Assembly: GCF_003075095.1 (NCBI RefSeq) | Contig: NZ_QCZF01000014.1 | Span: forward strand, 1 to 64,000 | Reading direction: 5' to 3' | DNA length: 64,000 bases | Source of the DNA: Blastococcus litoris | GTDB taxonomy: Bacteria > Actinomycetota > Actinomycetes > Mycobacteriales > Geodermatophilaceae | In this document: piece after piece, positions 10,350 through 20,071 of the stretch | Position numbering within the stretch: the stretch's first letter is position 1 | Layout: every line of letters begins with the position of its first letter | Notes under the pieces: generated by a model | What the model saw: the letters and a program-made list of their open reading frames with translations, nothing else | Told to the model about the DNA's origin: nothing | The model's database searches: none | Position numbers and translations under genes: made by a program

Positions 10350-11894
10350 TCAGTCGTGGAAGACCTCGATGTGGGCGCCCATCTCCACCAGCCGCTCGTA
10401 GAGGTGCTCGTAGCCCCGGGCGATGATGTCGACGTTCCGCAGCACCGACGTGCCCTTCGCCGCGAGCATGGCCAGCAGGATGACCACCGCGGGGCGCAGC
10501 GCCGGCGGGCAGACGACCTCGGCGCTCGACCAGCGGGTCGGGCCGTTCACCAGGACGCGGTGCGGGTCCATGAGCCGCACGTCGGCACCGAGCCGGGTCA
10601 GGTCCGAGAGGTGGATGGCGCGGTTGTCGTACACCCAGTCGTGGATCAGCGTCGAGCCGCTCGCCTGCGCCGCGATCACGGCGAAGAACGGCAGGTTGTC
10701 GATGTTGAGCCCCGGGAACGGCATCGGGTGGATCTTGTCGATCGGCGCGTGGAGGACCGACGGCCGGATCGTGATGTCGGACAGCCGGGTGTGGCCGTTG
10801 TCGGCCAGGTACTCGGGGGAGAGGTCGTACTGCAGGCCCATCTCGGCCAGGACCGCCAGCTCGATCTCCAGGAAGTCGATCGGCGTCCGCTGGACCGTCA
10901 GCTCCGAGCCGGTGACGATCCCGGCGGTCAGCAGGCTCATCGCCTCGACCGGGTCCTCGCTGATCGTGTAGTCGACGTCGGCGTCGAGCACGGGCTTCCC
11001 GTGGACGACGAGCGTCGTCGTCCCGAGGCCCTCGATGCCGACGCCGAGCAGCTGCAGGTACAGGCACAGGTCCTGGACCATGTAGTTCGAGCTGGCGTTG
11101 CGGATGACCGTGGTGCCGTCGGTGCGCGCCGCGGCCAGCAGCGCGTTCTCGGTGACGGTGTCCCCGCGCTCGGTCAGCACGATCGCCCTCGCGGGGGCGC
11201 CGGAGTGCCGCACCGTCGCGTGGTACTCGCCGGCCCGTGCCTCGACCTCCAGCCCGAAGGGGCGCAGGGCGATCATGTGCGGCTGGACGGTGCGGGTGCC
11301 CAGGTCGCAGCCGCCGGCGTAGGGCAGCTCGAAGGTGTCCGCCCGGTGCAGCAGCGGGCCCAGGAACATGATGATGCTCCGGGTGCGCCGCGCGGCGTCG
11401 GCGTCGATGGCGGCCAGGTCCAGCTCGTCGGGGACGACGAGGGTGAGGTCGTGGCCCGAGGCGTCCCAGACGGCCGAGACGCCGATGGAGCGCAGCACGT
11501 CGAGGATGCGCTCGACCTCGACGATGCGGGCCACGTTGCGCAGCGTCGTCCGGCCGCGGTTGAGCAGGGAGGCGCAGAGCAGGGCGACGGCGGCATTCTT
11601 GGACGACTTCACCGCGACGCTGCCGCGCAGCGGGTGACCGCCGGCGACCCGCAGGTGGGTGGGCCCGGTCGGACCGAGGCTGATCAGCTCGCTCTCCAGC
11701 GCCGCCGACAGCCGACCGAGCAGCTCCAGGGTGAGGTTCTGGTTGCCCTGCTCGATCCGGGCGACCGCGCTCTGGCTCGTGCCCAGGCGCTCGGCGAGCT
11801 GCTGCTGGGTGAGGCCGTGGTGGCGGCGGGCGTCGCGGACCAGCGATCCGATGCGCCGCATGGCGGTGTCGGTCGTGGGATCGGTGAGCGTCAC
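10350..11894 (-). CDS. XRE helix-turn-helix fused to MurA-like enolpyruvyl transferase
   Basis: N-terminal Cro/C1-type HTH (from MRRIGSLVRDARRHHGLTQQQLAERLGTS, continuing QSAVARIEQGN) followed by a full MurA/EPSP-synthase fold of about 420 residues. MurA features kept: SSKNAAVALL (the KN substrate motif) and YAGGCDLGTRTV, aligning the catalytic loop cysteine and the following arginine. Start is uncertain: GTG 11894 or 11900, or ATG 11861 immediately before the HTH; I use 11894. It would transfer enolpyruvate to UDP-GlcNAc, or serve mainly as a metabolite-sensing regulator. A perfect palindrome lies just upstream, between it and the divergent NAD(P)-binding gene. Such HTH-MurA fusions occur in other actinobacteria; a separate housekeeping murA is expected elsewhere. 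Confidence 0.85.
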   Translation of the reverse strand: MTLTDPTTDTAMRRIGSLVRDARRHHGLTQQQLAERLGTSQSAVARIEQGNQNLTLELLGRLSAALESELISLGPTGPTHLRVAGGHPLRGSVAVKSSKNAAVALLCASLLNRGRTTLRNVARIVEVERILDVLRSIGVSAVWDASGHDLTLVVPDELDLAAIDADAARRTRSIIMFLGPLLHRADTFELPYAGGCDLGTRTVQPHMIALRPFGLEVEARAGEYHATVRHSGAPARAIVLTERGDTVTENALLAAARTDGTTVIRNASSNYMVQDLCLYLQLLGVGIEGLGTTTLVVHGKPVLDADVDYTISEDPVEAMSLLTAGIVTGSELTVQRTPIDFLEIELAVLAEMGLQYDLSPEYLADNGHTRLSDITIRPSVLHAPIDKIHPMPFPGLNIDNLPFFAVIAAQASGSTLIHDWVYDNRAIHLSDLTRLGADVRLMDPHRVLVNGPTRWSSAEVVCPPALRPAVVILLAMLAAKGTSVLRNVDIIARGYEHLYERLVEMGAHIEVFHD

Positions 11895-11905
11895 GGTCAC
11901 AGACG

Positions 11906-16641: not shown

Positions 16642-16842
16642 TCAGTCGGTCGCGGAGTGGAACTCGGCGCCGGCGGGGTCGGCGTCGTCGGAACCGACGG
16701 CCTGCCGCTCCTGCTCGGTGCGGTGCTCGAGCACCTCGTCGCTGGGGTGCGGGTCCTTGGCGTGCTGGGTGCGGTCCCGGGTCACGCTCTCCTCGGGCGT
16801 GATGACGTCGTCGAGGTTCGGGGTGTCGTGCGGGCCGGTCAT
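16642..16842 (-). CDS. Small acidic hypothetical protein
   Basis: 66 residues, highly hydrophilic, rich in Asp, Glu and Thr (PNLDDVITPEESVTRDRTQ, ending EFHSATD); likely disordered. ATG 16842 has GGAG nine bases upstream. Not recognised. Lies in a run of minus-strand small genes before the EVE-domain gene. Confidence 0.55.
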   Translation of the reverse strand: MTGPHDTPNLDDVITPEESVTRDRTQHAKDPHPSDEVLEHRTEQERQAVGSDDADPAGAEFHSATD

Positions 16843-16913: not shown

Positions 16914-17213
16914 TCAGCGCGGTTCGAGCCGGGCCGCGGGCAGCCAGGTCTCCACCAGAGCGGGGCCGTGCGGGCCGGTGACGGTGTAGGCGACGCGGCC
17001 CTGCCAGCCGCCGCCGCGCTGCCGCCACTCGACCAGCAGCCCCGGCCAGATGCCCGGGGTGTCGGGTGGGTCGTGGACCCAGCAGTGCCGGCCCTCGCCG
17101 CCGTCCCCGGCCGCGGCGTACGAGGCCGACGGCTCGGACGCGGGGGCGTCGGCGCGGACGCCGGAGGCCGCCGCCCGCTCGCCGAGCGAGCGCCCGCCGC
17201 GTCCTGGAGTCAT
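16914..17213 (-). CDS. Small conserved-looking hypothetical, possible SOS gene
   Basis: 99 residues from ATG 17213. The N-terminal 40 are low-complexity; the rest is compact, with [24 protein letters not shown] and WQGRVAYTV then [13 protein letters not shown], which reads like a small beta-rich domain. I recall similar short proteins in actinobacteria but cannot name a family. A perfect LexA-type box lies 34 bases upstream of its start, the usual position for SOS control, so it may be DNA-damage-inducible. No signal peptide. Confidence 0.6.
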
Positions 17214-17246
17214 GCCGCCGGCCACGTCGGAAGTCTCGCACGGACA

Positions 17247-17262
17247 TCGAACGCATGTTCGA
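17247..17262. promoter_or_regulatory. lexA box: LexA-type SOS box
   Basis: TCGAACGCATGTTCGA has perfect arms TCGAAC and GTTCGA separated by four bases, the actinobacterial/Gram-positive LexA consensus. It lies 34 bp upstream of the minus-strand small gene and about 164 bp upstream of the plus-strand secreted nuclease. Distance favours the small gene as the target. Confidence 0.75.
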
Positions 17263-17335: not shown

Positions 17336-17353
17336 TGTGACGTCCCCGTCACA
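17336..17353. promoter_or_regulatory. TGTGACG-N4-CGTCACA palindrome
   Basis: Perfect 7-bp arms in the upstream region of the secreted nuclease. It looks like a CRP/FNR-type site but its TGTGA and TCACA halves are 8 bases apart rather than 6, so the binder is unknown. TAGCGT at 17385-17390 downstream may be the -10 of the nuclease gene. Confidence 0.45.
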
Positions 17354-17425: not shown

Positions 17426-20071
17426 GTGCTCGTACCACTCGGCGGCACGCGCGTTCTCGCGCGCCGCACTGCTCTCGGCACCCTCGCCGCCTCCGTGGCG
17501 GTCGTGGGCCTGCCCGCCCTCGCGCACGCCGACCCGCCGACCGCGCCGTTCATCTCCGAGATCCACTACGACGACGACGGCGCGGATGCCGGCGAGTTCG
17601 TCGAGGTGACGCTGCCGGCCGGGACGAGTTCCGCCGGGCTCTCGGTCGTCCTCTACAACGGGAACGGCGGCGGGACCTACACGCCTCTGGTCACGTTCCC
17701 GACGGTCACGGCTCCGGCCGACGCCCCGGTCGCGGTGTCGGGGACCGCGGTCGGCATGCAGAACGGCGCACCGGACGGGCTGGCGCTGGTCCAGGACGGC
17801 ACGGTCCTGCAGTTCCTCTCCTACGAGGGCACGATCACCGCCACCAGCGGTCCCGCCGCCGGTCGGACCAGTGCCGACATCGGCGTCTCGGAGGCCGGCA
17901 CCGAGCCGGACGGGCTCTCCCTGTCCCTCCGCTTCGACGCAGCCGGCAACGGGGCGTGGTACCCACCGGCACCGAACACCCGCGATCAGGTCAACCCGCT
18001 CTTCGAGGCCCCCGACTCCTGCGACGTCGAGCCGACGCACGAGATCGGCGACGTGCAGGGCAGCGGCTCGTCCACGCCCCTGGAGGGCGAGCAGGTGACC
18101 GTCCGCGGTGTCGTCGTCGGTGACACCCCCGGGTTGTCCGGGTTCTACCTGCAGGACCCGGACGGTGACGGGGATGCCGCGACGTCCGACGGCATCTTCG
18201 TGGAGTCCGGCATCGCCGTGGACCTCGGGGACACCGTCGCGGTCATCGGCGGCGTCCGGGAGAACTTCGGTCAGACGCAGATCACCTCGCGCGAGGACGT
18301 CGCGGTGTGCGAGGACGGTGACGCCGGCGACCTGCCCGAGCCGCTCCTCCTCGACCTCCCCGCCACCGCCGCCGAGCGGGAGCCGTTCGAGGGGATGCTC
18401 GTCACGCCCGACAGCAACCTCGTCGTCAGCGAGGTCTTCACGCTGACCCGGTTCGGCGAGCTGATGCTCGCCGCCGACCGTGTGCTGGTCCAGCCCACCG
18501 AGCTGGCGCGTCCGGGCACCGCTGAGGCGGCCGCGGTCGCGGAGGACAACGCCCTGCGGCAGATCGTCCTGGACGACGCGTCGAACGCCACCCTCTCGGT
18601 CACCAACCGTCCGTACCTGTCGCCGGCCACGCCCGTCCGGGTCGGTGACACCCTGACGTTCACCGAGCCGACGGTGCTGGGATTCGGCTACGGCGACTGG
18701 CGGCTGCAGCCGGCCGACGGCACCGCCGATGGCACCTTCGCGCCGCAGAACACCCGCCCCGAGGTCGCCGAGCCCGACGAGGTCGGGGGCGACGTCCAGC
18801 TCGCTGCCTTCAACGTGCTGAACTACTTCGTCTCGTTCGGCCCGGAGAGCCGGGGCGCGGCGAACCCGGCGGAGCTCGACCAGCAGGCGGCCAAGATCGT
18901 CCCGGCCATCCGGGCGCTGGACGCCGATGTCGTCACGCTCATGGAGATCGAGGACACCGACTCGACCGGTCACTCGCCCGGCGATGCCGACGGTGCGCTG
19001 GCCGACCTCGTGACGCGGCTCAACACCGCGGAGGGCTCGGACGTCTGGAGCTACGTGCCGCTCCCCGACGAGCTGTACGCAGTCGACCGGGACGTGATCC
19101 GCAGCGCGATCATCTACCGCGACGACGCCGTGCAGCCCGTCGGCGAGCCGGTGGGGCTGGCGGACGAGTCCGTCTGGTTCAACGCCCGCGAGCCGCAGGC
19201 GCAGACGTTCGTGAAAGACGGCGACGCCTTCACGGTCGTGGCCAACCACTTCAAGTCGAAGGGCAGCCCGCCGGAGGACGAGAACGGTGACCCGATCGAG
19301 GGTGACCCGAACAACGACTACGGCCAGGGCAACTGGAACGTCGCCCGAATCGCGCAGGCCGAGTCGCTCGCCGCTTTCGCCGACGAACTGCAGGACTCGA
19401 CCGGCGACGACGACGTGGTGCTGATGGGCGACTTCAACGCCTACACGCAGGAGGACCCGATCGTCGAGCTGGCCGAAGCCGGCTACGGCGACCTGGGTGA
19501 AGAGTTCGACCCGGGCCGCTACAGCTACGTCTTCGACGCGCTGTCCGGCTCCCTCGACCACGCGCTCGCCACGCCGGAGCTCGAGGCCAAGGTGACCGGG
19601 CTGGCGCACTGGAACATCAACGCTGTCGAGTCCTCCGCCTACCAGTACGACGGCGACGAGTCGCTCTACGCGCCGGACCCGTACCGGTCCAGCGACCACG
19701 ACCCGCTGGTGCTGGGCCTCGACCTCGACGAGCCGGCCCCGCCGGTGGCCACCTGCGGCGGTCAGGTCGTGACCGTCACCGGCACGCCCGGGAACGACGT
19801 GATCCTCACCGGTCTCGGCCGGGACGTCGTCGCGGCCGGGGACGGCAACGACCTGGTCATCGACCTGTTCGGCAACGACGTCATCTGCGGCAACGGGGGC
19901 AACGACACGCTGTTCGGGGGCCTCGGCGACGACACGCTCTACGGCGGCGCCGGCGACGACGTCCTCTCGGGCGACTTCGGCAAGGACACCCTCATCGGTG
20001 GCACCGGGCGGGACAGGCTCTACCAGGGCTTCGGCCGCGGCACGGAGCAGCAGGAGGGCGCCGACTCGTGA
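17426..20071 (+). CDS. Secreted multidomain nuclease (ExeM/NucH-like)
   Basis: 881 residues exported by an N-terminal signal with ARRTALG (Tat-like twin arginine) and likely cleavage after AHA near residue 35. Order: lamin-tail (LTD) domain about 37-165 ([19 protein letters not shown]), an OB-fold nucleic-acid domain about 215-330, then an endonuclease/exonuclease/phosphatase domain about 450-770 with [33 protein letters not shown] and [11 protein letters not shown], and a C-terminal RTX-like Ca2+-binding repeat block ([17 protein letters not shown]). All catalytic Asp/His/Asn positions are visible. It would degrade extracellular DNA for phosphate and nucleotides. GTG start with GAAAGGA five bases upstream. 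A strong terminator follows. Confidence 0.88.

Follow-up and report, generated by a model that had tools for sequence, protein, structure and literature searches.

Which gene does the LexA-type box at positions 17247-17262 of the 64-kb window (the whole stretch of DNA that was analysed) control, and what could its product contribute to the SOS response? An earlier note had claimed a perfect box at this site, and the sequence bears it out: the element, TCGAACGCATGTTCGA, has no strand and is a perfect 6 + 4 + 6 palindrome with both arms free of mismatches. Motif scans detected no other perfect match in the window. When up to two mismatches were allowed, 2 sites were found in the window against 2.12 expected, which is no better than chance, and the weight of the evidence therefore lies at the genome scale. 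A genome-wide motif scan had been suggested as a way to rank the site, and in its own genome (G000, 4.63 Mb in 87 contigs) it ties as one of five perfect boxes. At up to one mismatch, G000 contained 30 sites (5 perfect and 25 with one mismatch), compared to 6 for a reversed control pattern, all being forward-strand counts. Forward counts of perfect sites summed to 206 across 37 genomes, against 4 control sites, with at least one perfect site in 36 of the 37.

We examined 15 stretches of G000, which together contain every perfect site beyond the window and 14 of the 25 one-mismatch sites; genes on these stretches were called by a simple composition script and identified using Pfam. The other four perfect boxes lie before DUF6504/HEPN_SAV_6107 (the dnaE2 locus), before dinB and, in two cases, before lexA. 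One-mismatch boxes were found before recA and ruvC, and a further one lies 267 bp before a radical-SAM gene. The third lexA box is also a one-mismatch site, so that lexA is preceded by two perfect boxes and one imperfect box (L037, 5788-5883), with a LysM gene divergent from them. Six DUF222 genes (L038, L041, L043, L044, L045 and L047), two of them with an HNH domain, have one-mismatch boxes at or before their starts; we take these genes to be 13E12-like. The remaining four of the 14 sites fall within genes or far from any start, and among the 11 other one-mismatch sites, one falls inside dnaE2. Pfam identified both LexA (L037) and RecA (L040) in G000. DUF6504/HEPN_SAV_6107 and their perfect box stand at the end of contig C7 (L035), while a piece of DnaE2 opens contig C9 (L219); the DUF6504-HEPN_SAV_6107-DnaE2 cassette of G000 has apparently been split by the assembly, and the three genes were found together in L220 and L221.

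The gene next to the box encodes a small protein on the minus strand. Of 30 homologous loci examined, one was cut by a contig end, and all 29 usable loci begin with MAGGM, 19-21 bp after the box. Since homologs share this start, we place that of the window gene at the GTG at 17225, giving a protein of 103 aa (16914..17225). The 99 residues and the 34-bp gap to the box given in the earlier note are accordingly replaced by 103 residues and 21 bp. Searches of Pfam and NCBIfam with the window protein returned no match. An extended -10-like element, TGC-GAGACT (17232..17240, minus strand), can be read between the box and the start codon. The position of this element would place the start of the transcript at about the start codon, indicating that the mRNA is probably leaderless.

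Phylogenetic footprinting provided strong support for the proposed LexA control of this gene. A scan of named genomes yielded 85 loci, and 80 were kept, nearly all under titles of Geodermatophilaceae genera (Blastococcus, Geodermatophilus, Modestobacter, Trujillonella and Goekera), with a few under other titles such as 'Frankiales bacterium' and the unverified 'Bacillus sp. AZ43'. Three of the 80 were cut by contig ends, leaving 77 usable loci, which come partly from the same genomes as the 29 loci used to fix the start. The box was kept in 77 of 77, at 19-22 bp ahead of the start (61 perfect and 16 with one mismatch), and a TGN-NANNNT element was present within 25 bases past the box in every one of them. 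Positions in the box arms carried about 1.4-2.0 bits of information, whereas the 60 bp preceding the box averaged 0.26. In the rest of these loci, no perfect and three one-mismatch boxes occurred among 746,722 positions. On this comparative evidence, we consider it very probable that a conserved unnamed protein is under SOS control.

The box also lies 163 bp upstream of a divergent gene on the plus strand, encoding an extracellular endonuclease of the ExeM/NucH family with RTX repeats (17426..20071; NF033681, 558.5 bits), and the earlier note had considered this gene as a second target. Comparison of loci did not uphold this. Gene order is largely common (a DUF998 gene, a 66-aa gene, the small gene and a malQ-like gene), and the box is present at 11 of 11 syntenic loci, whereas the nuclease is present at four; we therefore assign the box to the small gene. 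The constant gap of 19-22 bp to the small gene in 77 of 77 loci, and the separate GTSAC-N6-GTCAC repeats at the four nuclease promoters examined, also argue against control of the nuclease by the box, which we regard as very improbable, and we judge from the locus comparison that the nuclease falls outside the SOS unit. The 66-aa conserved hypothetical gene (16642..16842, minus strand), downstream of the small gene and on the same strand, was present in 10 of 19 loci clustered, and no Pfam family was found for it.

Two further features of the window were observed. Upstream of the nuclease, there is an inverted repeat, TGTGACG-TCCC-CGTCACA, at 17336-17353, and the GTSAC-N6-GTCAC repeat (11-base spacing) occurs upstream of the nuclease in four of four loci (the window, L082, L085 and L086). 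PHO boxes have a similar 11-base repeat spacing, and the nuclease may be phosphate-regulated. At 10350-11900, an XRE-type helix-turn-helix N-terminus appears by eye to be fused to an apparent MurA-type domain.

Homologs of the small protein were present in 32 of 61 genomes in the search of relatives (own genome included). In the order, phylum and class searches, the best 12-19 candidates per genome were scored and the counts are lower bounds: at least 41 of 249 genomes of the order, 39 of these in the window's own family; at least 6 of 296 genomes of the phylum, a count that includes G000 and consists mostly of weak matches; and, with a broader profile, at least 54 of 394 genomes of the class. 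Phylum-level matches in G304, G409, G472 and G480 were discounted, being short with weak E-values (0.003-0.01), and stops interrupt three of them. The N-terminus and the box could be read for 99 genes, from 89 of the 108 genomes with a match in the relatives, order or class searches. A box with at most one mismatch was found at 93 of the 99 genes (52 perfect and 41 with one mismatch), and 72 of these boxes lie 19-22 bp from the start; the six genes without one comprise two in G403 and one each in G815, G847, G620 and G867. At one locus (L208, 5689-6160), two tandem members stand behind a single perfect SOS box.

Divergent members are spread over the class; some adjoin prophage genes and one is carried by a phage. 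Two boxed members (L070 and L074, in G028 and G139) adjoin genes that resemble phage tape-measure genes by eye. Among the mycobacteria-like proteins (a group name that is a guess), only the second half of the profile matched, with E-values of 1.7e-7 to 3e-5, and the box stood 3 bp before the ATG in three of three examined; we are less sure that these proteins belong to the family. The Microcystis phage MinS1 encodes a divergent member with an arm-like N-terminus and without a box (L167, 5884-6174). Its neighbour is annotated as DUF3263, which is actinobacterial, and the true host of MinS1 may therefore be an actinobacterium. When the MinS1 protein was itself used as a query, weak matches to Gordonia minor capsid proteins and to one faecal phage were obtained. 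A phage search with the window protein returned no match, and neither the plasmid search nor scans of viral contigs returned a member. A literature search found no publication naming the family, which is no proof of absence.

The AlphaFold2 model of the small protein, built from 55 aligned sequences, had a mean pLDDT of 72.7. The predicted protein has three parts: an N-terminal arm (residues 1-23), a variable linker and a barrel (residues about 44-103, pLDDT about 90). Residues from about 51 to 103 were modelled at 85-93, with strands at 46-51, 59-70, 73-84 and 87-96 followed by a short helix and 100-102, and we read this predicted fold as SH3-like. The arm was modelled as a short helix (14-20) with low confidence. 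Both arm and barrel are strongly conserved in the alignment, the consensus of the arm being MAGGM..GR.GRSL.ER.

Searches with structures and profiles linked the protein to no named family. Among the PDB matches listed by Foldseek, chromo-barrel and Tudor domains lead and ribosomal proteins are also present, with a best E of 0.065 and none significant (E 0.001); the viral structures likewise gave no match at 0.001 (best 0.023), and no UmuD structure occurred among the 50 best Foldseek matches. In the 29 members searched, Pfam gave three single weak matches, to Cren7 (E 0.03), SCNM1_acidic and DUF2866 (0.39), NCBIfam gave none, PHROG gave six single matches (best phrog_14234, E 0.002), and PADLOC gave one weak match, to Can1 (E 0.029). 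No Pfam match to UmuD (peptidase S24, PF00717), YolD (PF08863, at E up to 0.5) or DUF6504 (PF20114) was present in these members, nor any to CarD or DUF3553, the Tudor-type domains that bind RNA polymerase, to which the likeness is at the level of the fold only. By the profiles tested, the small protein belongs to none of the UmuD, YolD, DUF6504 and Tudor families. The sole match in a PDB sequence search, an antibody at E 0.9, was judged to be due to chance.

The arm of the small protein is found mainly in genomes with one type of DnaE2. DnaE2A and DnaE2B groups have been described, and DnaE2 has been divided into a group with ImuA-ImuB and groups without, some of the latter with a stand-alone ImuB-C, as set out in part of PMC12926913; we take DUF6504 to be this stand-alone ImuB-C. 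Co-occurrence of the small gene and DnaE2 as such carried no information: at E 1e-100, the DnaE2 model picks up 60 of 61 relatives, with replicative DnaE included, and only the type of DnaE2 is informative. We set the type by the NF004225 cut-off, 'below' meaning no match above it and including incomplete genomes. Below the cut-off, an arm motif chosen after the sequences had been seen ([LM].[ED]R, its first residue at position 12-16) was carried by 51 of 54 genomes, and by 15 of 18 outside the window's family; above the cut-off, 1 of 34 had it. A position-free version, likewise chosen post hoc, was present in 51 of 54 and 4 of 34, and three of the four matches above the cut-off (G028, G139 and G683) sat elsewhere in short N-termini. 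G871, which had no DnaE2 result, was left out of these counts.

The naive Fisher value for arm against DnaE2 type is 1e-19, which ignores descent. On a tree of the barrel with 91 rows (eight were left out, namely seven divergent or odd reading frames and G871), the DnaE2 type changes six times and the arm eight times; once descent is taken into account, 4-6 switches underlie the correlation. Four independent pairs on supported branches gave a mean of 2.4 concordant, 0.1 discordant and 1.5 without difference (median p 0.5). Independent switches are few and four pairs cannot reach significance, and the link between arm and DnaE2 type is thus not statistically established.

Individual genera illustrate the pattern. 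In genus g4, the genomes above the cut-off (G018, G028, G139, G152 and G255) have no gene at the malQ locus and an arm-less relative elsewhere, and those below it (G035 and G188) have kept gene and box at the malQ locus. DnaE2 of G018 and G028 is preceded by an ImuB-like gene, with an IMS domain in the G018 copy, and by a putative ImuA gene, identified by position because the G018 copy has no domain recognised by Pfam. A second case is genus g298, where the barrels of G709 (with arm) and G692 (without arm) are close relatives that differ in DnaE2 type as predicted. There are also counter-cases: G686, whose genome is 68% complete, has the arm despite a DnaE2 above the cut-off, and G560, G578 and G608, below it, lack the full motif yet start with MAGG. 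A search with the A5 profile found no member in 28 of 29 genomes, and none in the seven genomes of f18 (guessed to be Streptomyces); the member-less genomes below the cut-off included G023, G032, G045, G058 and six of the seven f18 genomes. Other N-termini, such as MGxNRRYG and MGxNPxRRxxWPxP, are common to members in genomes with DnaE2 above the cut-off (L230, L232, L234-L236, L239, L240, L185, L186 and L189).

We tentatively propose, at somewhat less than an even chance, that the small protein serves the error-prone polymerase complex of the SOS response as an accessory subunit, with a layout like those of UmuD' and YolD/YqjX. The box would act as a LexA operator within the promoter of one small gene. 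LexA would shield the -35 side, immediately before the extended -10, as long as the cell is undamaged; DNA damage would lead to transcription of the gene as a leaderless mRNA. The product would be a two-part adaptor, with a conserved N-terminal arm joined by a variable linker to an SH3-like barrel. The proposed docking partner of the arm is the type of DnaE2 that accompanies the DUF6504 gene, and the barrel would have a function in common with the arm-less relatives found alongside the ImuA-ImuB-DnaE2 type. The earlier note had suggested a function in repair, and a repair-type role fits, since the other perfect boxes of G000 precede genes for translesion synthesis and lexA. No operon link to a polymerase was found at the 11 syntenic loci.

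The locus shares several features with known systems. An operator of the TCGAAC-N4-GTTCGA type near the start is seen in the actinobacterial LexA/SOS regulon, for example that of Streptomyces venezuelae, as described in PMC9380542, and likewise here; the boxes of G000 at lexA, recA, ruvC, dinB and the dnaE2 locus are also shared with that regulon. The small protein differs in matching no named family in our searches. The parts of PMC12926913 consulted describe UmuD' and YqjX as an N-terminal arm plus an SH3 barrel, and an SH3-like core of UmuD' also appears in part of PMC6511836. The small protein resembles UmuD', the small subunit of Pol V, in being small and very probably SOS-controlled and in its predicted layout of an N-terminal arm and an SH3-like core, but differs in having no match to peptidase S24 and no adjoining umuC-type gene at the 11 loci. 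YolD/YqjX (PF08863) is also small and SOS-linked, with an SH3 core (PMC6511836, in part) and a conserved N-terminal arm (PMC12926913, in part), but the 29 members have no PF08863 match and no Y-family polymerase neighbour was seen by eye at the 11 syntenic loci. DUF6504 (PF20114) is likewise small, and its gene has an SOS box in this regulon, but that gene is a separate one in G000 and the members have no PF20114 match; the barrel of ImuB-C is, moreover, unlike the SH3 barrel of UmuD' and YqjX in the account given in part of PMC12926913. The small protein may work like a UmuD' or YolD subunit.

Other roles for the product have to be weighed against that of a polymerase subunit. Stand-alone small SOS genes often encode division inhibitors, and at the 11 syntenic loci the gene lacks an operon partner whose function is known; the protein could act as an SOS checkpoint in the manner of SulA, YneA, ChiZ or SidA, its arm binding a division protein and delaying division. 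We find this rather improbable: no hydrophobic or transmembrane segment was visible in the sequence by eye, no LysM, hydrolase or other Pfam domain was found in the members, and such a role would not account for why the arm depends on DnaE2 type. A LysM gene divergent from lexA is also the arrangement of ChiZ-like inhibitors, and G000 already has such a gene facing lexA and its boxes. The lead of chromo-barrel and Tudor domains among the PDB matches listed, ribosomal proteins among them, and the Cren7 match, in one of 29 members, are consistent with a Tudor-like binder of RNA polymerase or nucleic acid (as CarD, the C-terminus of UvrD and Cren7), adjusting transcription or coating DNA during the SOS response. 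The Tudor domain of DinX resembles the RNA-polymerase-binding domain of UvrD in the part of PMC6511836 concerned, which also speaks for such a binder. SH3-like barrels are, however, too common to indicate one ligand, neither the PDB nor the viral structures gave a match at E 0.001, and CarD and DUF3553 are absent from the Pfam matches, and we regard this role as unlikely.

The gene could also have come from a mobile element, as an anti-defence, anti-repression or phage-induction factor that was domesticated along with its SOS box. The copies of G028 and G139 beside tape-measure-like genes, the member in MinS1 and members near relaxase-like genes (by eye) in L197 and L200 are consistent with this. 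Against it, a single chromosomal locus has been kept in the 11 loci compared within the window's family, arm and barrel are both under strong conservation, PADLOC gave a single weak match and the scans of viral contigs gave no member; such an origin is, in our estimate, improbable. We retain the accessory polymerase subunit as our working proposal.

A broader and more doubtful reading is that the small protein represents a class-wide, unnamed family of SOS-induced docking subunits, in which a conserved SH3-like barrel carries exchangeable arms matched to the mutasome of the genome. Arms of the type MAGGM..SL.ER would go with the DUF6504-linked DnaE2, and genomes with ImuA-ImuB-DnaE2 would have different arms or lack one; a swap of the polymerase complex would be accompanied by loss or exchange of the arm, and phages would carry their own versions. 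The SOS response and mutasomes help to set the bacterial mutation rate under stress, and a conserved LexA-controlled gene present in many Actinomycetia and unrecognised by the family libraries searched would be a missing piece of the SOS response. DnaE2 complexes that lack ImuA have been proposed from genome analysis and modelling, as outlined in part of PMC12926913. If the arm docks on one type of DnaE2 only, it would provide a direct handle on the assembly of these ImuA-less complexes.
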